The notes under the pieces: model-generated
Seen by the model: the letters and a program-made list of their open reading frames with translations, nothing else
What the model was told of the DNA's origin: nothing
Database searches by the model: none
Translations under genes and position numbers: made by a program
NCBI GenBank assembly: GCA_945921355.1
Contig: CAMEKM010000001.1
Coordinates: 1-64,000 of the forward strand
Source: an uncultured Bacteroidales bacterium
GTDB taxonomy: Bacteria > Bacteroidota > Bacteroidia > Bacteroidales > Paludibacteraceae
DNA: 64,000 bases
Reading direction: 5' to 3'
Part shown: positions 39,340 through 53,081 of the stretch, one piece after another
Layout of the letters: every line of letters starts with the position of its first letter
How positions within the stretch are numbered: the stretch's first letter is position 1

Positions 39340-39652
39340 AACATGCAAATAAATTGGTTTTTCTGGTGATTTTATATGTGGTGGATGCGGTTTTTATGAT
39401 TTCATCTTTGACTTGCTCCTTTTTTTGTTGAGTTTTGCTGCTTTTTGTGAGAAAAAAGGAGCAAGCTATATGTGAGTATATTAAGTATGTGTGAGTATGT
39501 GTATAAATGTATGGGTATGTATGATTTGTTTCTTTGTTTGGAGATGGAGGGATTATATCATATCTATCAGCAGTTATCTGAGTTGTTGGCTTGTAACTTG
39601 CTGGATGATGAGGTGATGTTTCTTGTCATATTGGAGAGAAAAGTGCAAATTA
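39340..39652. repeat. Long duplicated module, copy 1 (includes stem-loop D)
   Basis: This ~310-bp stretch closely matches 41210-41534. It contains TTTTATATGTGGTGGATG, stem-loop D at 39411-39467, a TG-rich run and a stretch that could encode MEGLYHIYQQLSELLACNLL. Coding is not established. A partial third copy is at 39930-40047. Confidence 0.65.
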
Positions 39653-39710
39653 GTTTTATTGTCTGTGGCTTTATATGTGGTGGATGTGGTTTTTTATGAT
39701 TTCAGCTTTA

Positions 39711-41209: not shown

Positions 41210-41534
41210 AAGAAAAATGCAAATAAGCTGGTTTTTATGGTGATTTTATATGTGGTGGATGCGGTTTTTTATGATTTCAGCTTTGACTTGCTCCTTTTTT
41301 TGTTGAGTTTGCTGCTTTTAGTGAGAAAAAAGGAGCAAGCTATATGTGAGTATATTATGTATGTGTGAGTATGTGTGAGTATGTGTATAAATGTATGGGT
41401 ATGTATGATTTGTTTCTTTGTTTGGAGATGGAGGGATTATATCATATCTATCAGCAGTTATCTGAGTTGTTGGCTTGTAACTTGCTGGATGATGAGGTGA
41501 TGTTTCTTGTCATATTGGAGAGAAAAGTGCAAAT
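41210..41534. repeat. Long duplicated module, copy 2 (includes stem-loop F)
   Basis: Near-identical to 39340-39652. It contains stem-loop F at 41286-41341 and the same potential frame EGLYHIYQQLSELLACNLLD. The two copies bracket the RhuM gene and look like the ends of a duplicated or inserted cassette. Confidence 0.65.
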
Positions 41535-41574
41535 AAATTGGTTTTTATGGGGTGGTAGGGGGAATTATGTTAGT

Positions 41575-41781
41575 TTATGCTCTGTTATCGTTGTAAAGTT
41601 CATCAAACATTTCGTCTTGTAATTTTCTGAGTTTTTTATTGTGTGGTTCGTCTTGGCAAGCAATATTGCGTGGTCCGTGATATGAAGTTCGTCTTTTCCA
41701 TACTCTGCATATGGTGTAAACCAGCGCAACGCAAAGGATGGTGCTTACAGCTGCTAGTAATATTTTGAACAAGATAGACAC
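41575..41781 (-). CDS. Small single-pass membrane protein
   Basis: The product has 68 residues. One N-terminal transmembrane helix (ILFKILLAAVSTILCVALVY) is followed by a basic segment (RVWKRRTSYHGPR) and an acidic-amphipathic tail (KLRKLQDEMFDELYNDNRA). It starts 34 nt after the DUF4268 gene on the same strand, so it may be the last gene of the island. No family is recognised. Confidence 0.55.
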   Translation of the reverse strand: MSILFKILLAAVSTILCVALVYTICRVWKRRTSYHGPRNIACQDEPHNKKLRKLQDEMFDELYNDNRA

Positions 41782-41815: not shown

Positions 41816-42730
41816 TTACAATCTAGTTACCTTCTTAAATATTGGAGCTAGTTGAATATACCAATCAAATATTGTATTCCAATTGGTTTGATTGTTTGAA
41901 TCGATGCTCTTCATTATATATATGCGGCACGCTTTAGATGCTTCACGCCATACGATTTCGCCATCAAACATTTTTGCAATCTCCTCTGAATATGCACCTA
42001 ATTCTGCGTAATATTTCTTATCATCAGGGATATATATACCAATATCTACCGTTCCTTTTGTAGGTTGTACATTCAACGAAATATGACAATTACTTTTTCC
42101 TACAGCTAAATCAAACCAAGAATCTTTGTGAGCACGACGAAGTTTGAAGTCTTTTGTAAAAGTAGGATGAGTAGCAGCATAATTTCTAAATGCTTCCCAA
42201 AAACTGATACAGAATTTACCTCTTTCTGTAATCTCGGCAGATGTGTTTCTTTCTTCTTTGACCCAATCGTTAGGGCGTTCTACTATATTGAATTTTGGTG
42301 CTGGGAGCGAATCTCCAATACGCCATAACTCTATCTCTAGTAAGAAAAAGTTAATCTCGTTGTCTGTATGAGCATTCAGCCATTCAATAGCTTGTCTATG
42401 CTCATCACGAGCTTGTTTGACAATCCATATTATATATTTTGCATCTTTGCCACTAGCATAAGTTATAATCTTACCAAGATGGTCATGATTAGTAAACTCC
42501 AATTGATTCTCAATTATGATTTTCTTACCTGTTCCCTGTTCTTCGGCATATATATCCACGGAATAACCGCCTACAGAAGATTCTCTTTCTATTAAGCAAA
42601 TATCCAATCCAACGGTATCTCCTAAAAGATTCAAATTATCTTCTTGTGCTAGCCACGAAGAGAAGTCGTACTCCTCGTGCTTCCAAATCTCACGTAATTC
42701 AACGCGTTGTAATTTACCAATTGAAGCCAT
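41816..42730 (-). CDS. DUF4268-domain protein, PD-(D/E)XK-like
   Basis: The product has 304 residues. The N-terminal half has VGGYSVDIYAEEQGTGKKII then IENQLEFTNHDHLGKIITYA. This is a restriction-endonuclease-like core with D and E-x-Q in place of the usual E/D-x-K. The C-terminal DUF4268 part includes FCISFWEAFRNYAATHP. DUF4268 proteins are common in defence islands. Here it follows the three-helix membrane protein by 88 nt. It is probably a nuclease or an effector partner; target unknown. Confidence 0.78.
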   Translation of the reverse strand: MASIGKLQRVELREIWKHEEYDFSSWLAQEDNLNLLGDTVGLDICLIERESSVGGYSVDIYAEEQGTGKKIIIENQLEFTNHDHLGKIITYASGKDAKYIIWIVKQARDEHRQAIEWLNAHTDNEINFFLLEIELWRIGDSLPAPKFNIVERPNDWVKEERNTSAEITERGKFCISFWEAFRNYAATHPTFTKDFKLRRAHKDSWFDLAVGKSNCHISLNVQPTKGTVDIGIYIPDDKKYYAELGAYSEEIAKMFDGEIVWREASKACRIYIMKSIDSNNQTNWNTIFDWYIQLAPIFKKVTRL

Positions 42731-42818: not shown

Positions 42819-43250
42819 TTAAAAAAAGTGTTTCAAAATTCCTATTAAAAAAGTAAATGCAATTATCACAAAAGAGAGGAATTTGATCCATATCCATATA
42901 TAACTTAATCTACTATGTTTGATTAAACTTTGATTATATGTTGTAAGATATTTTTTATCGCCATATTTTTTTTCAAGCGATAGTAATTTATTATAATAAA
43001 AACAAGTATCAATAAAATAATGTAAAATATCTATGGCAAGATAAGCAAAACCTGTAAACAAAGAAGCAATCATCCAATTATTACTCAGCATAAAACTGCC
43101 ATCATTATACGAAACCACCCATATTGTAGTAATAATGCCCATTACCAAGGTTCTAGTATTTTGTGATACTTTGGTAGATTGGGTATTATAGAATCCATTA
43201 CCTTCTTCTATGGAATCTTCAAAATTCTTCTTTACTTGATCAATTGCCAT
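42819..43250 (-). CDS. Three-helix membrane protein coupled to a tiny peptide gene
   Basis: The product has 143 residues. A soluble N-terminus (MAIDQVKKNFEDSIEEGNGF) precedes three hydrophobic helices at about residues 33-49, 59-80 and 117-139. A basic linker (YYNKLLSLEKKYGDKKYL) lies between helices 2 and 3. The start codon shares one base with the stop of the 35-codon gene (TAATG), so translation should be coupled. It lies in the defence island. A membrane effector, as in SLATT-type systems, is plausible but unproven; I do not recognise the family. Confidence 0.7.
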   Translation of the reverse strand: MAIDQVKKNFEDSIEEGNGFYNTQSTKVSQNTRTLVMGIITTIWVVSYNDGSFMLSNNWMIASLFTGFAYLAIDILHYFIDTCFYYNKLLSLEKKYGDKKYLTTYNQSLIKHSRLSYIWIWIKFLSFVIIAFTFLIGILKHFF

Positions 43251-43357
43251 TATTTCTTAGGAAATCCAGCAGGACCTATATGACGTCCTACACCATTATT
43301 ACCTTCTTGTGGAGGTTTTGTAGAAGGCACTTTTATTGCATTATTTTCTCTTTTCAT
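43250..43357 (-). CDS. Tiny peptide 1 with GRHIGPAGF motif
   Basis: A 35-codon ORF reads MKRENNAIKVPSTKPPQEGN and then NGVGRHIGPAGFPKK. The motif GRHIGPAGF is also in the 26-codon peptide 4 nt upstream. Differences between the two motif copies are synonymous (GGA/GGG, CAT/CAC), which argues for real coding. Its stop overlaps the start of the three-helix protein. It is basic at the C-terminus and Pro-rich in the middle, with no signal sequence. Function unknown; a regulatory ligand, antitoxin-like partner or modified peptide are all possible. Confidence 0.65.
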   Translation of the reverse strand: MKRENNAIKVPSTKPPQEGNNGVGRHIGPAGFPKK

Positions 43358-43360
43358 ATT

Positions 43361-43441
43361 TTATTTTCTTTTTATGCCAAATCCAGCAGGACCTATGTGA
43401 CGCCCCTCGCCTCTCTCTTGTTTCTCTTCAGTATTATCCAT
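43361..43441 (-). CDS. Tiny peptide 2 with GRHIGPAGF motif
   Basis: A 26-codon ORF reads MDNTEEKQERGEGRHIGPAG and then FGIKRK. It starts 19 nt after the methyltransferase stop and ends 3 nt before peptide 1. The acidic N-terminus differs completely from peptide 1; only the GRHIGPAGF block and the basic end are shared. Both lie below the usual size cutoff of gene finders and would be missed in a standard annotation. Confidence 0.62.
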   Translation of the reverse strand: MDNTEEKQERGEGRHIGPAGFGIKRK

Positions 43442-43460
43442 AATTTATTTTATAATACAT

Positions 43461-45131
43461 TTAAATGACTTTATCTAATATTGTATCTTTAAACGTTTGC
43501 CAAATGTCTAGATGCACTTTTTTATAGTCTTCAAAGAGTTGTTTTACAAACTCTATTTCGAAAACTAATCTAAGATCGTTTGGGTCGTTGTCTGGTTGCC
43601 CTTCTTTACGAGTACCCACACGAGCAATCTTGATGAAATACAAATCTTTTATACCCTTGCCCTTGATGTATGGCATAAAGTAGTAAAGTTTGTTAAGAGC
43701 AACAGTAGAAGGGAATTTTTTGCCAGTATAGTAAATCTTAGCCGATTGGTCGAGGTATTGCTCCATGTTGTCAGCTTTGACGAGAGATACCAGCAGATTT
43801 TTGGTTAGATCCAAGTCTTCTGTATCTGGCAAATTTGCCTCAACGGTATTGTTTACAATCTCATCAGGATATTGCTCTTTTAACTGTAAGAAATCAACAG
43901 TTCCTGCTATACCAGGACCATCGGATGGTTTCGCATATTTCTTGATGGTCGCTTTATCGCCAAAGAGATATTTAGCAAACAGTTTAACGACTTCTACATT
44001 TACAGCATTGCCGAATTGCTTATATGCTTGGGCATCCACAACATCAGGTTGGAATGTGTCAGGAAAACTTTGCAGTCTTGCACATTCACGCAAAGTTAGT
44101 TCACGTTTACGACAGCCAACAATGGATGTTTGTGTAATAGCTACTAAAGCAGGGAAATATGTGCCAATTTTGACACGAATGCCAGATGGACGGAATTGCA
44201 AGATATGATCCCAAATATTAGGGTGCTTGTATTGTCCTGCTTGCCATTCCAATTTTGCCTTTGCTCCAAAGAAAAGTGGATTTTGTTTTGCTCTATTCAG
44301 CCATTCATCTATAAACTCTCGATTGTCTAAATACAATTGGTTGTTTTTATTGATAAAATTAATCTTCCAAGCAGGATAGCCCGTAGTATCTTCATTTAAT
44401 GATGGTTCATGCAAATACTCTGACCAAATAGGAAAGCCTGGTAGTTTCTTGCATTTGATATTTTGGATAAACTCATTCCACAAGTCCACCAACTGAATTT
44501 TATCTTCGCTCAAACGATATTTTTGCAAGTCATTTATTTCAGTATCATCCTGCAAAATATTTTCTACACTACATTTCGGCAATTTGCCTTTTGCATTGAA
44601 CTGAAAGACTGGCAATGTACCAATATCTTTACGCACGCACATGATGAACACACGCTCACGATGTTGTGGTATGCCAAGATAATGAGGACTAAAAATTACA
44701 GGCTCTTCCAATACATTGTAGCCGATGTTCGTCAAATGTTCGTGAATGGTTCGCCAAGTATTTCCACCATCATGTGAAGCCAAATTGCGTACATTTTCAA
44801 GCAAAGCATATTTGGGCTGACAATGTGCCATAATGCGCTCTACATCAAAAAACAGTGTTCCCTTTGTTTCATCTGCAAAGCCCAATCTTTTGCCTGCTTT
44901 TGAGAAGGCTTGACATGGAAATCCTCCGCACAAGACATCAAATGCTGGCAATTTGGAAGGGTCTATTTTAGTAACATCCACATCTGGTTTAAGACCATAA
45001 TTTGCTTCATATGTTTTTCTGCAATCTGCATCAATATCGCAGGCAAAAACGCACTCTCCCCCAAGCGATTCCATTGCTTGATGAAAACCGCCAATACCGC
45101 AAAATAAATCTATGAACTTAAATTTTTTCAT
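43461..45131 (-). CDS. DNA (cytosine-5-)-methyltransferase with C-terminal extension
   Basis: The product has 556 residues. C5 motifs are FIDLFCGIGGFHQAM (I), CGGFPCQAFSKAGKRLGF (IV, nucleophile Cys73), YALLENVRNL (VI), PQHRERVFIM (VIII) and YKQFGNAVNVEVV (X). A ~150-residue extension after motif X (from about residue 400) is not part of the core fold and may bind DNA or its nuclease partner. Its start overlaps the upstream endonuclease stop by 4 nt, so the two form a type II restriction-modification pair. Recognition sequence unknown. Confidence 0.92.
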   Translation of the reverse strand: MKKFKFIDLFCGIGGFHQAMESLGGECVFACDIDADCRKTYEANYGLKPDVDVTKIDPSKLPAFDVLCGGFPCQAFSKAGKRLGFADETKGTLFFDVERIMAHCQPKYALLENVRNLASHDGGNTWRTIHEHLTNIGYNVLEEPVIFSPHYLGIPQHRERVFIMCVRKDIGTLPVFQFNAKGKLPKCSVENILQDDTEINDLQKYRLSEDKIQLVDLWNEFIQNIKCKKLPGFPIWSEYLHEPSLNEDTTGYPAWKINFINKNNQLYLDNREFIDEWLNRAKQNPLFFGAKAKLEWQAGQYKHPNIWDHILQFRPSGIRVKIGTYFPALVAITQTSIVGCRKRELTLRECARLQSFPDTFQPDVVDAQAYKQFGNAVNVEVVKLFAKYLFGDKATIKKYAKPSDGPGIAGTVDFLQLKEQYPDEIVNNTVEANLPDTEDLDLTKNLLVSLVKADNMEQYLDQSAKIYYTGKKFPSTVALNKLYYFMPYIKGKGIKDLYFIKIARVGTRKEGQPDNDPNDLRLVFEIEFVKQLFEDYKKVHLDIWQTFKDTILDKVI

Positions 45132-46411
45132 GCTTGCTTATAAGTGTAGCGATATACCACATACTTATCCATTTCTTTTTTCTTAATAAGGAATTTCTTT
45201 TGTCGGCTTTTACCGTCTGGTTGTTTACCTTGGTTGAAATCAGTCAGAACATCTCTGAATGTTACACTATTCAACTCAAGAATTGTCATCTTCATAAACC
45301 GCACACTATTCTTCATGCGCTCATGATACGACATATCGTCCTTTTCGTAATTAGGAAGAACCGAACGAATATACTGATTGCGCTCTATAGTCGCTCTGTA
45401 TGCAGTTTCTTCGGAATCTTTTATAGTTTCGTGTTCATAAATAACATACCAAAAACGGTCGTGTTTATTGATACACTCTACAAAAGTTTCTTGGTCATTA
45501 CCAGGAGTAGAAGTTTTCTTAATATCACTTGCTTTCAGATCACCATAGAATTGTTCACGCCCAAACCATATGTCAAAATCGAAAGCACCTTCTTTATGCC
45601 CCTTATTGTCTGTTCCCACATATTTCATCAAATCAAGAGTATTATTATCAATGGTAAACTTATTGAATCTATACTCTAGAAACCAACCAGCCCACTCTGC
45701 TTGTTGCCAATGTCGCCAACTATCTCCGTGCATTTCTTTGATTTTATCAACAGCATACAGCCATTGACCAAAAGAGAAACCATTATTGAATTTAGCAAAC
45801 AAGTCAAAGAGTTCATTATCTCCAGTTTTTGTACCAGCCAAATAATCCGCAAAGTCTTTTGCTCGTACAGAATAAATATGATTGCCATACTGATCCTCAC
45901 GATGGAAAACGCCATTTCTTACTGCTTGGTATAGGTCGTTAGTGTAAACATGAGCAGAAGAATTATGCAAGCCATGTTGCAAATAAGTATCTTTTGCAAA
46001 ATCTACGAAAATAACATTATCTTGATAGTGATAAACTCCTACAAAACGAATATCATAATCAATCTTTGCAGCAATGGCTTCATTACAGAACTCTTGCCAA
46101 CTGCTTGGCATTTGAATGCGCTTTTTGAATATTGGATGAGGATTACCTAAATAGGATATGGCTTTATGCAGAAGGATAAATTTCTTTCCGTTAGTCCTAT
46201 ATACGAATAATTTGCGCCCTAAAATCTCTTCTACGAAACAGTTTTTCTCTCCTAAATAATGAGTTAGCGCAGCGCGTTGTCGCTTATTAGAACGCAGCAC
46301 TTGATCATGCGCCACTTCCAACCCAAAGTCCGAACGGATTTGTTCGCTCGGTCTATTGTGCGACTTATCATCGCTTAATTTGCTTTTGTCAAAAAAGAAG
46401 AAAAACATCAC
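45128..46411 (-). CDS. Probable type II restriction endonuclease (PD-(D/E)XK)
   Basis: The product has 427 residues. A candidate catalytic core is at about residues 276-295: FDFDIWFGREQFYGDLKAS, with Asp280 and Asp291-x-Lys293 in the correct order. The remainder has no domain I recognise. The start has two adjacent ATGs followed by a run of Phe codons (MMFFFFFDKS). It is encoded in a 4-nt overlap with the C5 methyltransferase, the classic R-M arrangement. The nuclease assignment rests on the motif and gene order. Confidence 0.7.
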   Translation of the reverse strand: MMFFFFFDKSKLSDDKSHNRPSEQIRSDFGLEVAHDQVLRSNKRQRAALTHYLGEKNCFVEEILGRKLFVYRTNGKKFILLHKAISYLGNPHPIFKKRIQMPSSWQEFCNEAIAAKIDYDIRFVGVYHYQDNVIFVDFAKDTYLQHGLHNSSAHVYTNDLYQAVRNGVFHREDQYGNHIYSVRAKDFADYLAGTKTGDNELFDLFAKFNNGFSFGQWLYAVDKIKEMHGDSWRHWQQAEWAGWFLEYRFNKFTIDNNTLDLMKYVGTDNKGHKEGAFDFDIWFGREQFYGDLKASDIKKTSTPGNDQETFVECINKHDRFWYVIYEHETIKDSEETAYRATIERNQYIRSVLPNYEKDDMSYHERMKNSVRFMKMTILELNSVTFRDVLTDFNQGKQPDGKSRQKKFLIKKKEMDKYVVYRYTYKQA

Positions 46412-46471: not shown

Positions 46472-48100
46472 TTAGTTTTCAAATGTGGTTATACCGATGC
46501 GAGAATGATGACTTGCATACGCATGACCAATCATATCCATCATTTCTTTTTGAAAACAAAATAGAGGATTACCTATTAAGTTTCTCATTATTGATTTTGG
46601 CAAAGTAAATGAAAAATTCAAGTTAAATAATATTATTTTCTCTTGATCTTGTATATCATATATGCCACGAATACGCAGAATAGACTCTTTTAACTTTGAT
46701 CTTCCTCTATTGGTTTTAGCATTGAATAAATCAGAGGATATAGCCATGCCCAATAAGTATTTACATGTTCTTTCTTTACTTTGACAAAAGTCACATGCTG
46801 CACTATATTCAACACATATTAATTGTACATTTTCTAAATCTTCCTGTATAATTTTAGGAAGTATTAAATCACAAAATTCTAAAACAGAATAACCAAATTT
46901 ATCTATGAAGAAGTCTTCATTAGGTTCTAGTATAATGGGACATAGTGCCCCTCTTGTTTCTGCAGTTATATTCCCCTTGCTTTGAATGTTGAAAATATTA
47001 TTTAATTGTGATACTTTAAAATTATCAGGAAAACAAATATCATTTGATGTAGTTGAGTTTTCAAGGACATCAATATTCGTATTCCATAAAGTATGTTCAG
47101 AATTTCTAAAAGCATCTGATAATAATGGAATTAATGATTCTTTTATTGCATAGTCAGGATTTTGTTTCGCAAGTGCATATCCAACAGTCTGAACCGCAAT
47201 TGCAGATAGAACTTGTTGGCAATTATTGTTAAATGTATCATTATTTTCTAATTGTTTTTGAATTTCAGCAAACTCTTCTGTGGTATCAATATCTAATATG
47301 GTAAGTTCACTATTAGGATAAATTTCTTGTAAACATTCATTGATTCTTCTAAAATCAGTGTAATTATTTACACTTTTAGCACTCATTGTGCACTTAAGAA
47401 TGAAGTCTCTATATTTTTTAAATCGAATATCTTCTACCATGTGATTATCAGGTGATTTAGGGTATCCCTCATAGAGAAAATGACTAAAACACTGTAATGA
47501 CCAGTCCTTCATCACAGGATGGTTGTTTTTGAACTTTGTAAGCAGTACACGCTTTTCCTCAACAGAATCTGCAGGATCGGTTATATCCAAACTCTTCAAA
47601 AAATAATCTAAATGCTCTGCAGTGAAAATATTAAGGTATTTTTCTGGATAATATGTAGAAAGTATCTTACCTTTAAAAACTAAAGCAAGTGGGATCTGTA
47701 TAATAGCCTTGATATCATCTGCTTCACCTGCTACTAATAAATCTAGAATATTCTTACGAATTTGTTCATAGGCATTTTGAGCACTGCCATATTTTTTTGC
47801 ATGTGAATATGAGTTCTCTTTTGCAGAATACCAGACTCCAAATTTTTTAGAGGAACCGCCACGAATACTGCCTAATCCACGCAGAGTATGCTCTAAATCG
47901 TAACAAAAATTATGTTTTCCGTTATTCCCATAACCAATCGTATATTCTTCGATAGGCATTCCTTCTATATGCTCAGGAGTGAAATAAGTAACAAATGCTT
48001 CTCGTTTAGCATTTAATGCTGCCAATTGATCTGTAACCAGCACAGGATTGAAATTCTCAAGGGCTATTTGGAATTTTTCGTTATCCATAGTTTCTTTCAA
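46472..48100 (-). CDS. McrB-N-like putative sensor protein
   Basis: The product has 542 residues. Residues ~30-165 resemble the N-terminal region of McrB-type and DUF3578 proteins: FCYDLEHTLRGLGSIRGGSS, KFGVWYSA, then YYPEKYLNIFTAEHLDYFL. No AAA+ motor follows, unlike true McrB. The middle is helical. The C-terminal half has a cysteine cluster (CDFCQSKERTC) that could bind metal, and ends IGHAYASHHSRIGITTFEN. It follows the caspase-like gene by 30 nt. A DNA- or modification-sensing role is inferred. Confidence 0.55.
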   Translation of the reverse strand: MKETMDNEKFQIALENFNPVLVTDQLAALNAKREAFVTYFTPEHIEGMPIEEYTIGYGNNGKHNFCYDLEHTLRGLGSIRGGSSKKFGVWYSAKENSYSHAKKYGSAQNAYEQIRKNILDLLVAGEADDIKAIIQIPLALVFKGKILSTYYPEKYLNIFTAEHLDYFLKSLDITDPADSVEEKRVLLTKFKNNHPVMKDWSLQCFSHFLYEGYPKSPDNHMVEDIRFKKYRDFILKCTMSAKSVNNYTDFRRINECLQEIYPNSELTILDIDTTEEFAEIQKQLENNDTFNNNCQQVLSAIAVQTVGYALAKQNPDYAIKESLIPLLSDAFRNSEHTLWNTNIDVLENSTTSNDICFPDNFKVSQLNNIFNIQSKGNITAETRGALCPIILEPNEDFFIDKFGYSVLEFCDLILPKIIQEDLENVQLICVEYSAACDFCQSKERTCKYLLGMAISSDLFNAKTNRGRSKLKESILRIRGIYDIQDQEKIILFNLNFSFTLPKSIMRNLIGNPLFCFQKEMMDMIGHAYASHHSRIGITTFEN

Positions 48101-48130
48101 TAATATTCAAGTTTGCATCAAGTGATGCTG

Positions 48131-48769
48131 TTATTTTATAACCATATCCTTTTGGAGATAGAATAGTATATCTGCTATTTTACGATAGTGTTCTTGATCT
48201 TTATGTTGGATTAAACAGTTGACAATTTCTCTACTGACTTGAAATTTAAATCTTTCTCGGAATAAAGAATAGTCATTAATTGTTTCCACTGAAATACTAT
48301 TACATAAAGCATCAACGAGAGCTTTATTGTAAATATCTATATCGCTTTGGGAGAAATCTGTAATATCAATACCATGTATATGTTTTCTTTTTTGTGCATC
48401 GTATAAACTAGTAGGTAAGTCTTGGAACCCAATTGTACTAGTTAAATGATATCTATGTATAAAATCAGCAGAATTGCATGCTAATAGAAAAAGCTTTTTT
48501 CCCTGCAAAAGATCAATATTGTATTTATCAAACATATTGCAATCATCTAATAAATCAGCATACAAAGCATCACTCCTGCCATGTCCCAAAAAGAAAATTA
48601 TATCAGCATCTTTGGCTATATTATATATCTCAGAAAGAGTATCATCATCATTATCTTTGTCATAACCTACTCTGGTCGCAGATAATGTGTCACAAATATA
48701 ATTACACAACGGAGATAAAAACTCTATCGCATAATCTTTCTCTGAATATATACATACTATTTTACTCAT
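48131..48769 (-). CDS. Caspase-like (CHAT/C14-type) putative protease
   Basis: The product has 212 residues. The catalytic pattern of the caspase fold is visible: a strand (ADIIFFLGHGRSD) carrying His63 and a following strand (KKLFLLACNSADF) carrying Cys98. The N-terminal strand (KIVCIYSEKDYAIEFLSPLC) and an Asp-rich loop come before. No other domain is fused. It overlaps the receiver gene by 8 nt, so its output could be gated by that protein. In defence systems such proteases act as abortive effectors; here that is an inference. Confidence 0.65.
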   Translation of the reverse strand: MSKIVCIYSEKDYAIEFLSPLCNYICDTLSATRVGYDKDNDDDTLSEIYNIAKDADIIFFLGHGRSDALYADLLDDCNMFDKYNIDLLQGKKLFLLACNSADFIHRYHLTSTIGFQDLPTSLYDAQKRKHIHGIDITDFSQSDIDIYNKALVDALCNSISVETINDYSLFRERFKFQVSREIVNCLIQHKDQEHYRKIADILFYLQKDMVIK

Positions 48770-49457
48770 GGTTTACAGTGGTAAGGTAAGCGATTGTTTG
48801 AGATAGTATTGCATCAATCCACTCTTCTGACCTCGCATCAGAATTATTCTCTATAATATCTGCAATTTCTCCAAATGATTTTTCTTGAAATTCAGGATAG
48901 CAAGATTGGAAAATAAAATCTTTATTTGAACGCAACAATTTAATTAGACGTTGTTCTACAGAATCATTTTGCTCTTTTTGTAAATATTCAATAAGTCTTT
49001 CTTGATAGTCTGTTCTATCTATACAGTCAATGATTTGGGCTTTAATAAGTTTGTTTATTCCTTCCACTAGCTCATCAATAGTTGCTTCATTATGTTCTTT
49101 GCCAACTACATTCGCTATCACCTTATTCCAGTTACCAGAATAAATAAAGAATTTCAATTTGGGGCGTATTTCACGCACCATATGAATGACATTCAATCCT
49201 GTAAAATCATCACCACATTCCAAATCGAAATCAGTCAGTGCAATATCAACACGTTTTAGTTGAATACGTTCCTTTATTTGGTTCTTTAGTTTATCTATAT
49301 CCAATTCTTCTGAATTGTCTTTCTTTAATTTTGCATCTGCAGTACGAATTGGTATAAAATCTAAATCAAAATCATTAGACAATCTAGTTGTTATGCTCTT
49401 GATTACTGCAGTCTGTGGCTTATCATCAACCACTAATATACATTTCTTTTGTTTCAT
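48762..49457 (-). CDS. Stand-alone response-regulator-like receiver protein
   Basis: The product has 231 residues. The receiver fold is indicated by ILVVDDKPQ (Asp11/Asp12), candidate phosphoacceptor Asp76 in DIALTDFDLE, and FFIYSGN with Ser107. A ~25-residue charged insertion (KLKKDNSEELDIDKLKNQIK) lies before the third strand. The C-terminal ~100 residues are helical with no HTH motif, so it is not a standard transcription factor. It begins 5 nt after the GHKL ATPase and overlaps the caspase-like gene. Confidence 0.75.
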   Translation of the reverse strand: MKQKKCILVVDDKPQTAVIKSITTRLSNDFDLDFIPIRTADAKLKKDNSEELDIDKLKNQIKERIQLKRVDIALTDFDLECGDDFTGLNVIHMVREIRPKLKFFIYSGNWNKVIANVVGKEHNEATIDELVEGINKLIKAQIIDCIDRTDYQERLIEYLQKEQNDSVEQRLIKLLRSNKDFIFQSCYPEFQEKSFGEIADIIENNSDARSEEWIDAILSQTIAYLTTVNHE

Positions 49458-49462
49458 AATTC

Positions 49463-51838
49463 TTATTCAAATGTTAAACGGAAAGTTGCACCAGTAGTAA
49501 AGTGCAGACCATTTCCTATGAACTGAATATCCCCATTGAGACTATCTCTCATACGTTCACGAATTGTACTTAATCCTATGCCAGATCCTCCTCTACGATT
49601 AGTGATCCCTTCCTCAAAAATACTCTCAGAAGTGAAAGTGTTCAAATCTACTCCTTTACCATTGTCAGTAAAGTCAACAATGTACGTTCTCCCATTTCTT
49701 GAAAAGTCCACTCGTATTTCTGTTGCACCTGCTTTATTTGAATTGCTCTTAAGATTATCCAAAACTATAGACAAATCCAAAACAGGAATTTTTTTCTCAA
49801 GAGGCTCTACTATGGTTGAATAATATTGTATCTTTAGATCTTTGTAATTTGCAAAATACTCCTCAATAAATGTTTGAATATCTACCAAATTAGACTGAGC
49901 TAATAAAGTTAAGTCTGCTTTTGTGATTAATTTTGAAAGTTTATTTATTTTTCCTGTATGATATTCCAATTCATCTAAAGATGTTCTTAAATCATGTATA
50001 TTATTATTCTCCCATTGATTTTTAGCTGTTTTAATCACACTTATAGCATCATTTGACGAAATTAATATAACATGCATTAAGTCGCGAACTTCTTTTGATG
50101 TATTTTGGGTAGCCTGAAGATATTTATTTTTTTGAATTTGAGCATCTAAGTTCTTTTCAGCCTCTTTACGTTTTTCTTCTTCCTTTTCTCTCTTTTGTTG
50201 CTCTTCTTGTGCTTTTTTCTGTGCTGTTTGCGCTTTAATTCGTTCTTCCTCTGCTTTTTTATCGGCTTCTTCTTTTTGACGACGCAATTCATCCATGTGA
50301 TTCTCAAATTGAGTAATCTTGTCCATCAAGTATGCATCGCCAGTTTGATATGCTACTTTGCGAGCATCTTCTATCATCTGCATTTGAATCAATTCTGTTT
50401 CAGATACATTAGATACAATATCAGCCAATTGAGCATTGTAATAAAGAATATTAATATCTGTATCGTTAGCAAGACTTTTGATTAATTGCATAAAATCAAT
50501 CTTGCTACCAATATTTTTATACAAATGTAGTGACGAGTCTTTATCTTTATCTGTTTGTTGAAGATTGGATCGTTCTTGTAAAGCTGTTTGTTGGTTTTTA
50601 AAGTACTCTTTTTTCAAGAACCCTTCTCCCCATAACACGCCTACTACATATCGCTCCAATCGATGATGTATTAATGTAAAATACTCCATCAACTGCTTAG
50701 AAGCATTTGTTTGAATTAATCCTCCATCTCGACTTGATACTTCTTTAATTGCATTAATATCATCGGTTTCCACATCTACACGTCCGAATAAATCACGCGT
50801 GCCCAAAAAGCGGTTATATCCTTGTTGTGCTCGTTGATTTATACCCCAGCTATCGTCATTATAATTACCAAATGGAAGAATACGAAAGCCATTGCGAAAC
50901 AAAAATATATTTCCATAATTAACAGGCTGAATGCCCATTTTAGATGAAAAACTATATTTTGCAGCTCTATTTAAGAAAAAGATGCTTATTTGGGCTGATG
51001 TGAGTTCTTGAAATTTATTAGGTTCCTTTATTTCATACATCTTAGCATCACGATCCCATAATGTAGTACGAATAAAGCCATCCTTTATAGTACTTTCTAT
51101 TTTTGTGGTTTTGAGTTTAAGAATATCTGCTATAGAGTTTTCAATAATTCCGTTCACTTTATCATACGAAAACTTGGCATCTTTATCATCCTCCGCATAT
51201 TTTGGAGCTATAATCTCTATTTGAAAATCGTCATCAGTACTAGAAAATGGATTGATCATTTTTTCTAGTGATTTTCTTATAGCAAGAATTTCTTTTCTAC
51301 CCCAAAGATTGTGCAATCCTCTAAATTCTAAAATAGTTCCTGTTTGATCATTATTAGGAAATTGAGGGATATCATCTAAAGTTTCATGAGGGATATTAAT
51401 CGTATCAAATTCTTGTTTTTTATTTTGTTCGAAAATTTTCCAATCTACATACAAGACCTCTGTTTTATTAGTCCCTAAACTTCGAGTGGTTAATGTTAAG
51501 CAGCGAGCCAACCTATCACACGATATACGTCCAATACCCTTGGCCCCTGCATAATGACGCTTAAACTTACTGCGGTATGAAGAATCTTCCGTGCCATCAC
51601 TTTTTGCAGAATAGGCAACAAATAACCACTTGTTGATCAAATCATCCTTTGACATTCCTTTGCCATTATCTGCTATGCGCAAATAATCTTCATCAAAAGT
51701 GATCTCTACTTTGGTAGCATGTGCATCATAAGAATTCTTGACTAATTCCAGAATGGCCACACCGGGACTTGTAATCAAGTCTCGACCAAGAATGTTTTTT
51801 AATTCTGCACTAACCCTAAATTGTAAATTATCTTGCAT
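49463..51838 (-). CDS. Double-GHKL ATPase (paraMORC-like N-terminus, histidine-kinase-like C-terminus)
   Basis: The product has 791 residues. The N-terminal GHKL/MORC-like ATPase has ILELVKNSYDAHA (~30-41), IADNGKGM (~55-62) and GAKGIGR (~98-104), then an S5-like region. A charged coiled coil (~520-600, KKAEEERIKAQTAQKKAQEE) leads into a second ATPase of histidine-kinase type: LDNLKSNSNKAGATEI, DFTDNGKGVDL and GGSGIGLSTIRERM. No orthodox H-box is obvious between coil and kinase domain. ParaMORC ATPases occur in restriction-modification neighbourhoods, and this gene overlaps a C5 methyltransferase gene by 11 nt. Confidence 0.82.
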   Translation of the reverse strand: MQDNLQFRVSAELKNILGRDLITSPGVAILELVKNSYDAHATKVEITFDEDYLRIADNGKGMSKDDLINKWLFVAYSAKSDGTEDSSYRSKFKRHYAGAKGIGRISCDRLARCLTLTTRSLGTNKTEVLYVDWKIFEQNKKQEFDTINIPHETLDDIPQFPNNDQTGTILEFRGLHNLWGRKEILAIRKSLEKMINPFSSTDDDFQIEIIAPKYAEDDKDAKFSYDKVNGIIENSIADILKLKTTKIESTIKDGFIRTTLWDRDAKMYEIKEPNKFQELTSAQISIFFLNRAAKYSFSSKMGIQPVNYGNIFLFRNGFRILPFGNYNDDSWGINQRAQQGYNRFLGTRDLFGRVDVETDDINAIKEVSSRDGGLIQTNASKQLMEYFTLIHHRLERYVVGVLWGEGFLKKEYFKNQQTALQERSNLQQTDKDKDSSLHLYKNIGSKIDFMQLIKSLANDTDINILYYNAQLADIVSNVSETELIQMQMIEDARKVAYQTGDAYLMDKITQFENHMDELRRQKEEADKKAEEERIKAQTAQKKAQEEQQKREKEEEKRKEAEKNLDAQIQKNKYLQATQNTSKEVRDLMHVILISSNDAISVIKTAKNQWENNNIHDLRTSLDELEYHTGKINKLSKLITKADLTLLAQSNLVDIQTFIEEYFANYKDLKIQYYSTIVEPLEKKIPVLDLSIVLDNLKSNSNKAGATEIRVDFSRNGRTYIVDFTDNGKGVDLNTFTSESIFEEGITNRRGGSGIGLSTIRERMRDSLNGDIQFIGNGLHFTTGATFRLTFE

Positions 51839-53081
51839 TCGTCAACATATGTTTTAACACAATACCAGCTAACTCCGCAAAAAGAGGTGGGATGGCATTG
51901 CCGACTTGTGTATATCGTGGTACTTCTAATTTGCGCATTTGTCCGCCTGTGGTATATTTCTTACGGAATTGATACCAGTCTGGAAATGATTGTATGCGAG
52001 CACACTCGCGCACTGTCATGATGCGAGGCTCACAATAGTGTAAATAATCATCTGGCTGTCCAGTGATAGTAGGAGATACAGTATGAGAATCAAGGACAGT
52101 GATACCACGCTGAAGAATACCCCATGGTTCACGCGCCTTGCCGTCAATACGTTTGCCTCGGGTTGGATATTCTGCTAACAAGCGATTATAGCATGCTAAT
52201 TTTCCTGCAGTATGTTTAGCAAAAGCATGACTATCTGCAGCATCGCCCTCTACAAATTGTTCGCCTCGTAGATATTGCTGGTAAGCAGATAAAACAGGGC
52301 CATATTTTCCTGCCATAAATCCCTTGCGATCACACGAAGGAGTTTCCCCGTAACTGCGTAATAAGTCAGAAATAGCCTCTTCTAATGTTGTGGTGGTTGA
52401 TAGATTTTTCTTCTTTAAGAAAGATTCTCTCTTATCTTTAAGAAGACTCTCAAACTCAGAGGCGCTGCGGTTTAATTCTTTTTGAATTCCAACTAGAATG
52501 AAACGTTTACGACGTTGTGGAACTCCATATTCTGAAAAGTCTATCACATGAGGGCGCACATCATAACCCAAACTTTGTAGTCGCTCCACTACAATTTGAG
52601 AATAAGGACGCGTGTTGTCATTCTTATTTTTCTTGAAAGCATATGTAAAGCCTTTTACATTCTCAAAAAGAATCATTTTGGGTTTGACAAGCTCAATGAA
52701 CTTAATATACGAAAAAACAAGCTGATTGCGTATATCATCTGCTACACGTTTGCCTGCCATAGAGAAACCTTGACAAGGTGGACCACCTGCGACGAGATCA
52801 ACTGTACCTTGTAAAGCCTCTAATTGCGTTGAATAGTTTTTGAGAACCTCATTGATGTCATGTGCCGTTTTAGGTAACCAATCTGGCCAATCAAAGTGCT
52901 TTTTGCTTTCTATAAGGTTGTGGCGTAATGTTTCAAATGCGAATTCATTCTTCTCTATGGCAAACAAACCGTGCCAGCCTGCCTGATACAAGCCTAAACT
53001 AAGTCCTCCGCATCCTGCGAAAAGATCAATAACGGTATGTTTATTTTTCTTCATATTCAGATTCCCAATTAAAAAAGACAT
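51828..53081 (-). CDS. DNA (cytosine-5-)-methyltransferase, first gene of the island
   Basis: The product has 417 residues from the first ATG; an alternative start nine codons in (MKKNKHTVIDLFAGCGG) is closer to the catalytic fold. Motifs are DLFAGCGGLSLGL (I), GGPPCQGFSMAGKR (IV, Cys103), ILFENVKGF (VI), PQRRKRFILVG (VIII) and YTQVGNAIPPLFAEL (X). It is a different subgroup from the other methyltransferase of this island. No endonuclease is paired directly with it; the GHKL gene follows with overlap. It is probably the modification arm of the signalling cluster. Confidence 0.93.
   Translation of the reverse strand: MSFLIGNLNMKKNKHTVIDLFAGCGGLSLGLYQAGWHGLFAIEKNEFAFETLRHNLIESKKHFDWPDWLPKTAHDINEVLKNYSTQLEALQGTVDLVAGGPPCQGFSMAGKRVADDIRNQLVFSYIKFIELVKPKMILFENVKGFTYAFKKNKNDNTRPYSQIVVERLQSLGYDVRPHVIDFSEYGVPQRRKRFILVGIQKELNRSASEFESLLKDKRESFLKKKNLSTTTTLEEAISDLLRSYGETPSCDRKGFMAGKYGPVLSAYQQYLRGEQFVEGDAADSHAFAKHTAGKLACYNRLLAEYPTRGKRIDGKAREPWGILQRGITVLDSHTVSPTITGQPDDYLHYCEPRIMTVRECARIQSFPDWYQFRKKYTTGGQMRKLEVPRYTQVGNAIPPLFAELAGIVLKHMLTNAR

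Follow-up and report, generated by a model that had tools for sequence, protein, structure and literature searches.

Three open reading frames (ORFs) follow one another on the minus strand of the window, a 64,000-nucleotide stretch of DNA from an uncultured Bacteroidales bacterium, and encode two peptides, here termed PepA and PepB, and a membrane protein, here termed 3TM (Table 1). The layout that an earlier note had described was recovered on the window sequence: ORFs of 26 and 35 codons are separated by 3 nt, the pepB stop codon overlaps the 3TM start codon by 1 nt (TAATG; AAATAATGGCA), and 19 nt lie between the pepA start and the stop codon of the methyltransferase gene (Pfam PF00145, E 1e-77). 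Because ORFs of 26-35 codons fall below normal annotation limits, a module of this kind is easily missed.

Table 1. Coordinates of the peptide and membrane protein genes and of adjoining genes in the window.
Feature	Position	Strand	Description
pepA	43361..43441	-	26-aa peptide MDNTEEKQERGEGRHIGPAGFGIKRK, one GPxG
pepB	43250..43357	-	35-aa peptide MKRENNAIKVPSTKPPQEGNNGVGRHIGPAGFPKK, one GPxG
3TM	42819..43250	-	143-aa three-helix membrane protein; homologs by sequence search
GRHIGPAGF DNA within pepA	43380..43405	-	GGGCGTCACATAGGTCCTGCTGGATT
GRHIGPAGF DNA within pepB	43263..43288	-	GGACGTCATATAGGTCCTGCTGGATT
C5-cytosine DNA methyltransferase	43461..45131	-	Upstream in operon; context, outside the module
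Type II restriction endonuclease with MTaX1 domain	45128..46411	-	Context
DUF4268 / PADLOC PDC-S11 protein	41816..42730	-	Downstream; context

The nonamer GRHIGPAGF is common to both peptides and, as had been claimed, the codon differences inside it are synonymous only. A shared word of 9 residues is far from chance since the longest word common to the two peptides never exceeded 6 residues in 20,000 shuffles. Over the block GxGRHIGPAGFx, the 12 aligned codons of pepA and pepB comprise 7 that are identical, 3 that differ synonymously, and 2 that differ nonsynonymously, the last being the two x positions. Neither peptide matched a Pfam or NCBIfam model. Hydropathy analysis of the 143 residues of 3TM resolved three segments, in keeping with the three-helix membrane protein that had been proposed to lie behind the peptides, and a single-sequence AlphaFold model comprises three long helices at low confidence (pLDDT 68).

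Relatives of the membrane protein and of the peptide motif

The exact nonamer was rejected as a signature of the family. When about 85,000 genomes were scanned for its DNA pattern, 17 matches emerged, in reading frames that look like chance: many are internal to long frames, and none is a short peptide next to a 3TM gene. The nonamer had no match in viral contigs, and among 393 genomes of the order only the two copies of the window itself were found. Tblastn matches to PepB in Rhizobium (E 0.4 and above) lack the motif and were also rejected as relatives; one looks like the N-terminus of a KUP-type potassium transporter and the other like an unrelated stretch.

The membrane protein is a better probe for the family than the nonamer. 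Profile searches with 3TM recovered ten loci besides the window (11 in total), of which seven belong to six other genomes of the same genus and one to a distant genome within the phylum; the last two are on a Vibrio plasmid and a Vibrio phage, the latter listed under Tectiliviricetes, Vinavirales. Within the genus, the protein of genome G578 was found in a family-level search (E 6e-17), and a profile search across the genus (178 genomes) added six more, two of them in G1055 and one each in G1037, G967, G972, and G998. The protein of the distant genome, G647, was matched over its full length by a profile of the window and G578 sequences (E 8e-4), and the Vibrio phage and plasmid members were reached via the G647 protein. 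Weak matches with internal stop codons (in G489, G595, G670, G842, and similar) were left out of the count. A single-sequence query of 392 other genomes of the order gave no hit, the profile found no member among 48 genomes sampled from a large sister genus, and protein searches of viral contigs found no relatives, the pattern candidates there failing in tblastn. The 3TM family is rare outside the genus, and the set of members is small and drawn mostly from one genus. A search of open-licence PubMed Central papers turned up no account of such a pair, and the peptide/3TM pairs apparently form a small, undescribed family.

At 11 of 11 loci, a small, usually basic ORF lies upstream of 3TM at a spacing of -53 to +9 nt from its start, and the overlap of stop and start codons is tight in most of them, taking the form TAATG in the window, G967, and G647 and the form ATGA in V. 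breoganii. At the two loci with long overlaps (G578 and G972) the starts could be further downstream, and there the overlap in itself places some constraint on how the peptide ends. The partner peptides range from 26 to 130 residues, and the small ORF of the Vibrio phage is unannotated in its record. Both peptides are present in G967, the closest relative (the PepA ortholog MEDKEEKQERGEGRHIGPVGIGTEKR and the PepB ortholog MGNNNSSRIPSPHSGRTDTNGVGRHVGPAGKPSK), followed by TAATG and 3TM. The 3TM proteins of the window and G967 have about 65% of their residues in common (93/143), and the two species are therefore well diverged. Between them, all 6 of the codons that differ within codons 5-18 of pepA are synonymous, and of those that differ in the tail block of pepB 9 are synonymous and 3 nonsynonymous; this mainly synonymous change indicates that the motif blocks are under purifying selection in this relative. 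Sequence comparison shows the peptide motif to be conserved at the amino acid level.

Across relatives, the conserved unit is G(R)H[IV]GP[AV]G in G967, where the final F of the nonamer is absent (GPVGI and GPAGK), and GPxG across the genus, with the variants GPAG, GPVG, GPSG, GPCG, GPTG, and GPKG. Of what the earlier note had predicted, a C-terminal motif conserved on unrelated N-termini and coupled to a membrane protein recurs at further loci, and conservation of the motif in related loci holds for GPxG, present at 8/8 same-genus loci; it does not hold for the nonamer, which is not general. The proposal that the full nonamer is a binding epitope is not supported, its general part being GPxG alone and that within the genus only.

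Thirteen peptides contain 16 copies of GPxG, against a mean of 0.74 and a maximum of 6 in 20,000 shuffles. Copies per locus mostly number 2-3, on one peptide or two: MEGPTG occurs three times at 18-residue spacing in G972, GPCG three times in G1037, and GPSG and GPCG together with an APCG in G578, while the window and G967 have one GPxG on each of two peptides. A single strict GPxG is present in G998 and in the second G1055 copy, and the eighth locus of the genus, truncated by a contig end, has GPCG...GPKG. Given that relatives repeat GPxG within one ORF, the two peptides of the window look like a split form. In a control set of 160 genes of at least 100 codons from these loci, seven have an abutting short GPxG ORF, and 7/7 of these are 3TM genes; the Fisher p value of 2e-12 for this association is descriptive because GPxG was generalized after the loci had been seen. 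The three tails from outside the genus are basic and contain GP without GPxG. TRSGGPK is found in both Vibrio peptides, a shared heptamer that was never reached in 5,000 shuffles, and the G647 peptide has the tail STGPR. From locus to locus the N-terminal parts show no relation to one another and are often strongly basic, several peptides having a net charge of +12 to +18. The window and G967 peptides are hydrophilic, with net charges of -1 to +5.

S29, R33, W44, and D74 (window numbering) are invariant in 11/11 aligned 3TM proteins, and at the genus level a QSSKxSxxxR-like segment precedes the first transmembrane segment (TM1) and DxxHYxxD closes the second (TM2). The invariance (n = 11) of polar or charged S29, R33, and D74 at or beside membrane helices suggests a functional channel or oligomer. 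The 3TM model had no fold match in the PDB at E ≤ 0.001, and a PDB profile search returned just a stretch of colicin E1 (E 0.08) and GPCR chains, none of them convincing. In Pfam, the window protein had no match at E values up to 10, the G578 protein had a sub-threshold match to Ion_trans only (E 0.9), and the G647 protein had no match; no NCBIfam model matched the window protein, and comparison with PADLOC and PHROGs gave no meaningful match for any of them.

Genomic neighborhoods

The pair neighbors a type II restriction-modification (R-M) system in the window, lies behind a type III R-M system (Res gene) in G967, and is inside a type I R-M operon, with AbiE, in G998. In G578 and G1037, Kiwa is immediately downstream of the pair, and in G647 a type IIG R-M enzyme is found a few kb off. 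At the G972 locus and both G1055 loci no recognized defense gene is adjacent, and surface-protein cassettes and unknown membrane proteins are found instead. The association with defense neighbors is a count over 11 loci, taken without a genome-wide null. The suggested coupling to a methyltransferase was not borne out, the other upstream genes being a type III restriction subunit, a gene of a type I R-M operon, and a surface-protein cassette. Further, G341 encodes the same methyltransferase-endonuclease pair as the window without peptides or 3TM, and the peptide/3TM module is therefore not a fixed part of this R-M system. From comparison of the loci, it is well supported that GPxG-tail ORFs and 3TM form a conserved overlapping gene pair that is kept as a unit in unrelated neighborhoods.

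Several other features were recorded around these loci. The methyltransferase-endonuclease (MTaX1) pair of G341 (L011:5646-8503, minus strand) is inserted between suf-like genes, a lone insertion that suggests that this pair moves on its own. A recurrent cassette lies directly upstream of the GPxG peptide at four loci (L048:2776-8618, L069:2570-8452, L070:10338-14793, and L072:9909-14746) and comprises genes for a TPR lipoprotein-like, a small exported, and a large surface protein, with a BspA-like LRR protein in some. Downstream of the GPxG/3TM pair, roughly in the place that Kiwa occupies in G578 and G1037, two loci (L069:785-2012, plus strand; L072:6828-8080, minus strand) have an unknown gene pair encoding a 155-160 aa membrane protein (weak DUF6688) and a 241-248 aa membrane-anchored protein, which may be another small membrane system.

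In the window itself, the same strand block continues upstream of the R-M pair with five further genes (46472-53081, minus strand). These encode a second C5 methyltransferase-like protein (51828-53081), a 791-aa GHKL-type ATPase/histidine-kinase-like protein with weak matches to PADLOC REase_II (49463-51838), and a protein resembling response regulators (48762-49457). The other two products are an unknown protein of 212 aa (48131-48769) and one of 542 aa that matches PADLOC PD-T4-1 over its N-terminal half (E 8.5e-46). The block looks like a multigene methylation-linked defense system with a signaling pair. On the plus strand, near-identical repeats at 39472-39699 and 41365-41622 flank a RhuM gene and have the ORF translation MSxxSMCEYVYKCMGMYDLFLCLEMEGLYHIYQQLSELLACNLLDDEVMFLVILERK, or equivalent.

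Possible roles of the peptides

The defense context and the invariant polar residues near the membrane suggest a membrane effector that is checked by peptides. We infer an antitoxin-like control of 3TM, as a membrane effector, by GPxG tails, and put at roughly 40% the probability of a two-component peptide/membrane-protein module, in or beside anti-phage operons, in which GPxG tails hold the 3TM effector inactive. In such a module, the peptides would be made just ahead of 3TM through coupled translation, which would bring peptide and membrane protein together. The GPxG tails, in 2-3 copies, would dock on the cytosolic face of 3TM, on a surface formed by the N-terminal QSSKxSxxxR helix and the D/H/Y/D face of TM2, and would keep an oligomeric effector inactive. 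Infection might then alter the supply of the peptides or what becomes of them, or they might be displaced by a phage product, and the freed 3TM would permeabilize or otherwise disturb the inner membrane, aborting the infection. An antitoxin role is just one among several ways in which peptides could control a membrane protein.

Type II toxin-antitoxin systems and abortive-infection membrane effectors resemble the pair in having a small, often basic upstream partner that overlaps a larger gene, and in mobility, occurrence in defense islands, and a predicted membrane effector. The toxin-antitoxin layout, with the small partner first, overlapping or abutting, and the two moving as a unit, is found at 11/11 loci, including phage and plasmid. 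No sequence relation to type II systems was found, and whereas these have a folded antitoxin with a DNA-binding domain, the predicted equivalent here is a peptide of 26-130 residues with a GPxG tail. SLATT proteins (SMODS and SLOG-associating two-TM effectors) share with 3TM an N-terminal soluble helix, conserved polar residues, and an association with defense, but have two helices rather than three and a nucleotide-sensing enzyme as partner rather than a GPxG peptide. No SLATT model matched the window and G578 proteins (E up to 10) or the G647 protein in Pfam scans, and no SMODS, SLOG, or other nucleotide-signal enzyme was recognized among the scanned neighbors. Kiwa (KwaA and KwaB), which adjoins the pair in G578 and G1037, also combines a small membrane protein with a soluble partner; the partner of 3TM is not DUF4868, and the 3TM proteins of the window, G578, and G647 were not matched by KwaA models, although these do detect the adjoining genes in G578 and G1037.

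The main rival to an antitoxin-like reading is a role of the peptide as activator or adaptor, its variable, mostly basic N-terminus sensing a nucleic acid or protein of the phage and the GPxG tail passing the signal to 3TM. Unrelated and often basic N-termini (+12 to +18 in several peptides) joined to a common tail resemble a sensor and output layout, yet the peptides of the window and G967 (26-35 aa, charge -1 to +5) leave little room for a sensor domain, and we regard this role as rather unlikely. Gly/Pro-rich stretches slow ribosomes, and the tight start-stop overlap at most loci would suit translational leaders in which Gly-Pro stalling or coupling sets the level of 3TM and the peptide has no further role. 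The distance from the last GP to the peptide end ranges between about 6 and 36 residues, however, GPxG is repeated within single ORFs (G972 and G1037), no Rfam element was found, and pepA, which does not abut 3TM, keeps its motif (6 synonymous and 0 nonsynonymous codons). Ribosome-arrest leaders have their arrest motif at a constant distance from the stop codon and from the regulated start, an arrangement that was not found. With the position and number of the motif varying, its amino acids kept, and pepA not next to 3TM, a pure leader role is disfavored and appears distinctly improbable.

The location of the pair within R-M operons (window, G967, and G998) and just upstream of Kiwa twice is what would be seen if the pair were an accessory part of adjacent defense systems, such as an anchor that ties an R-M complex or Kiwa to the membrane. 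The partners are biochemically unrelated (type I, II, IIG, and III R-M and Kiwa), however, and the occurrence of the window's methyltransferase-endonuclease pair without the module in G341 also argues against such a role, which we consider very unlikely. The least probable reading has the peptides as bacteriocin or RiPP precursors and 3TM as the immunity protein. Bacteriocin-immunity pairs do consist of small peptides beside a small membrane protein, a layout that the locus fits, but the peptides have no signal or double-glycine leader, those of the window and G967 are hydrophilic, and no exporter, protease, or modification enzyme was recognized near the loci read; nor is it suggested by the defense context or by the copies on a Vibrio phage and a Vibrio plasmid. 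The possibility that the peptides are precursors, raised in the earlier note, thus finds little favor, with no leader, exporter, or modification gene in the neighborhood.

If antitoxin-like control by GPxG tails is correct, a membrane effector ruled by the tails of short-motif peptides would bring a new control logic to bacterial immunity and might serve restriction systems and Kiwa as an add-on. The family offers a ready test set of 11 loci and a defined motif. It is conceivable, if somewhat doubtful, that the pairs represent a new class of membrane effectors gated by peptides, in which a conserved three-helix oligomer has its state set by GPxG tails and which serves as an add-on for many defense systems. 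In that case, the GPxG tails, often in tandem, would sit on quickly evolving small proteins and would constitute a modular 'short linear motif' fail-safe recruited by unrelated anti-phage systems.
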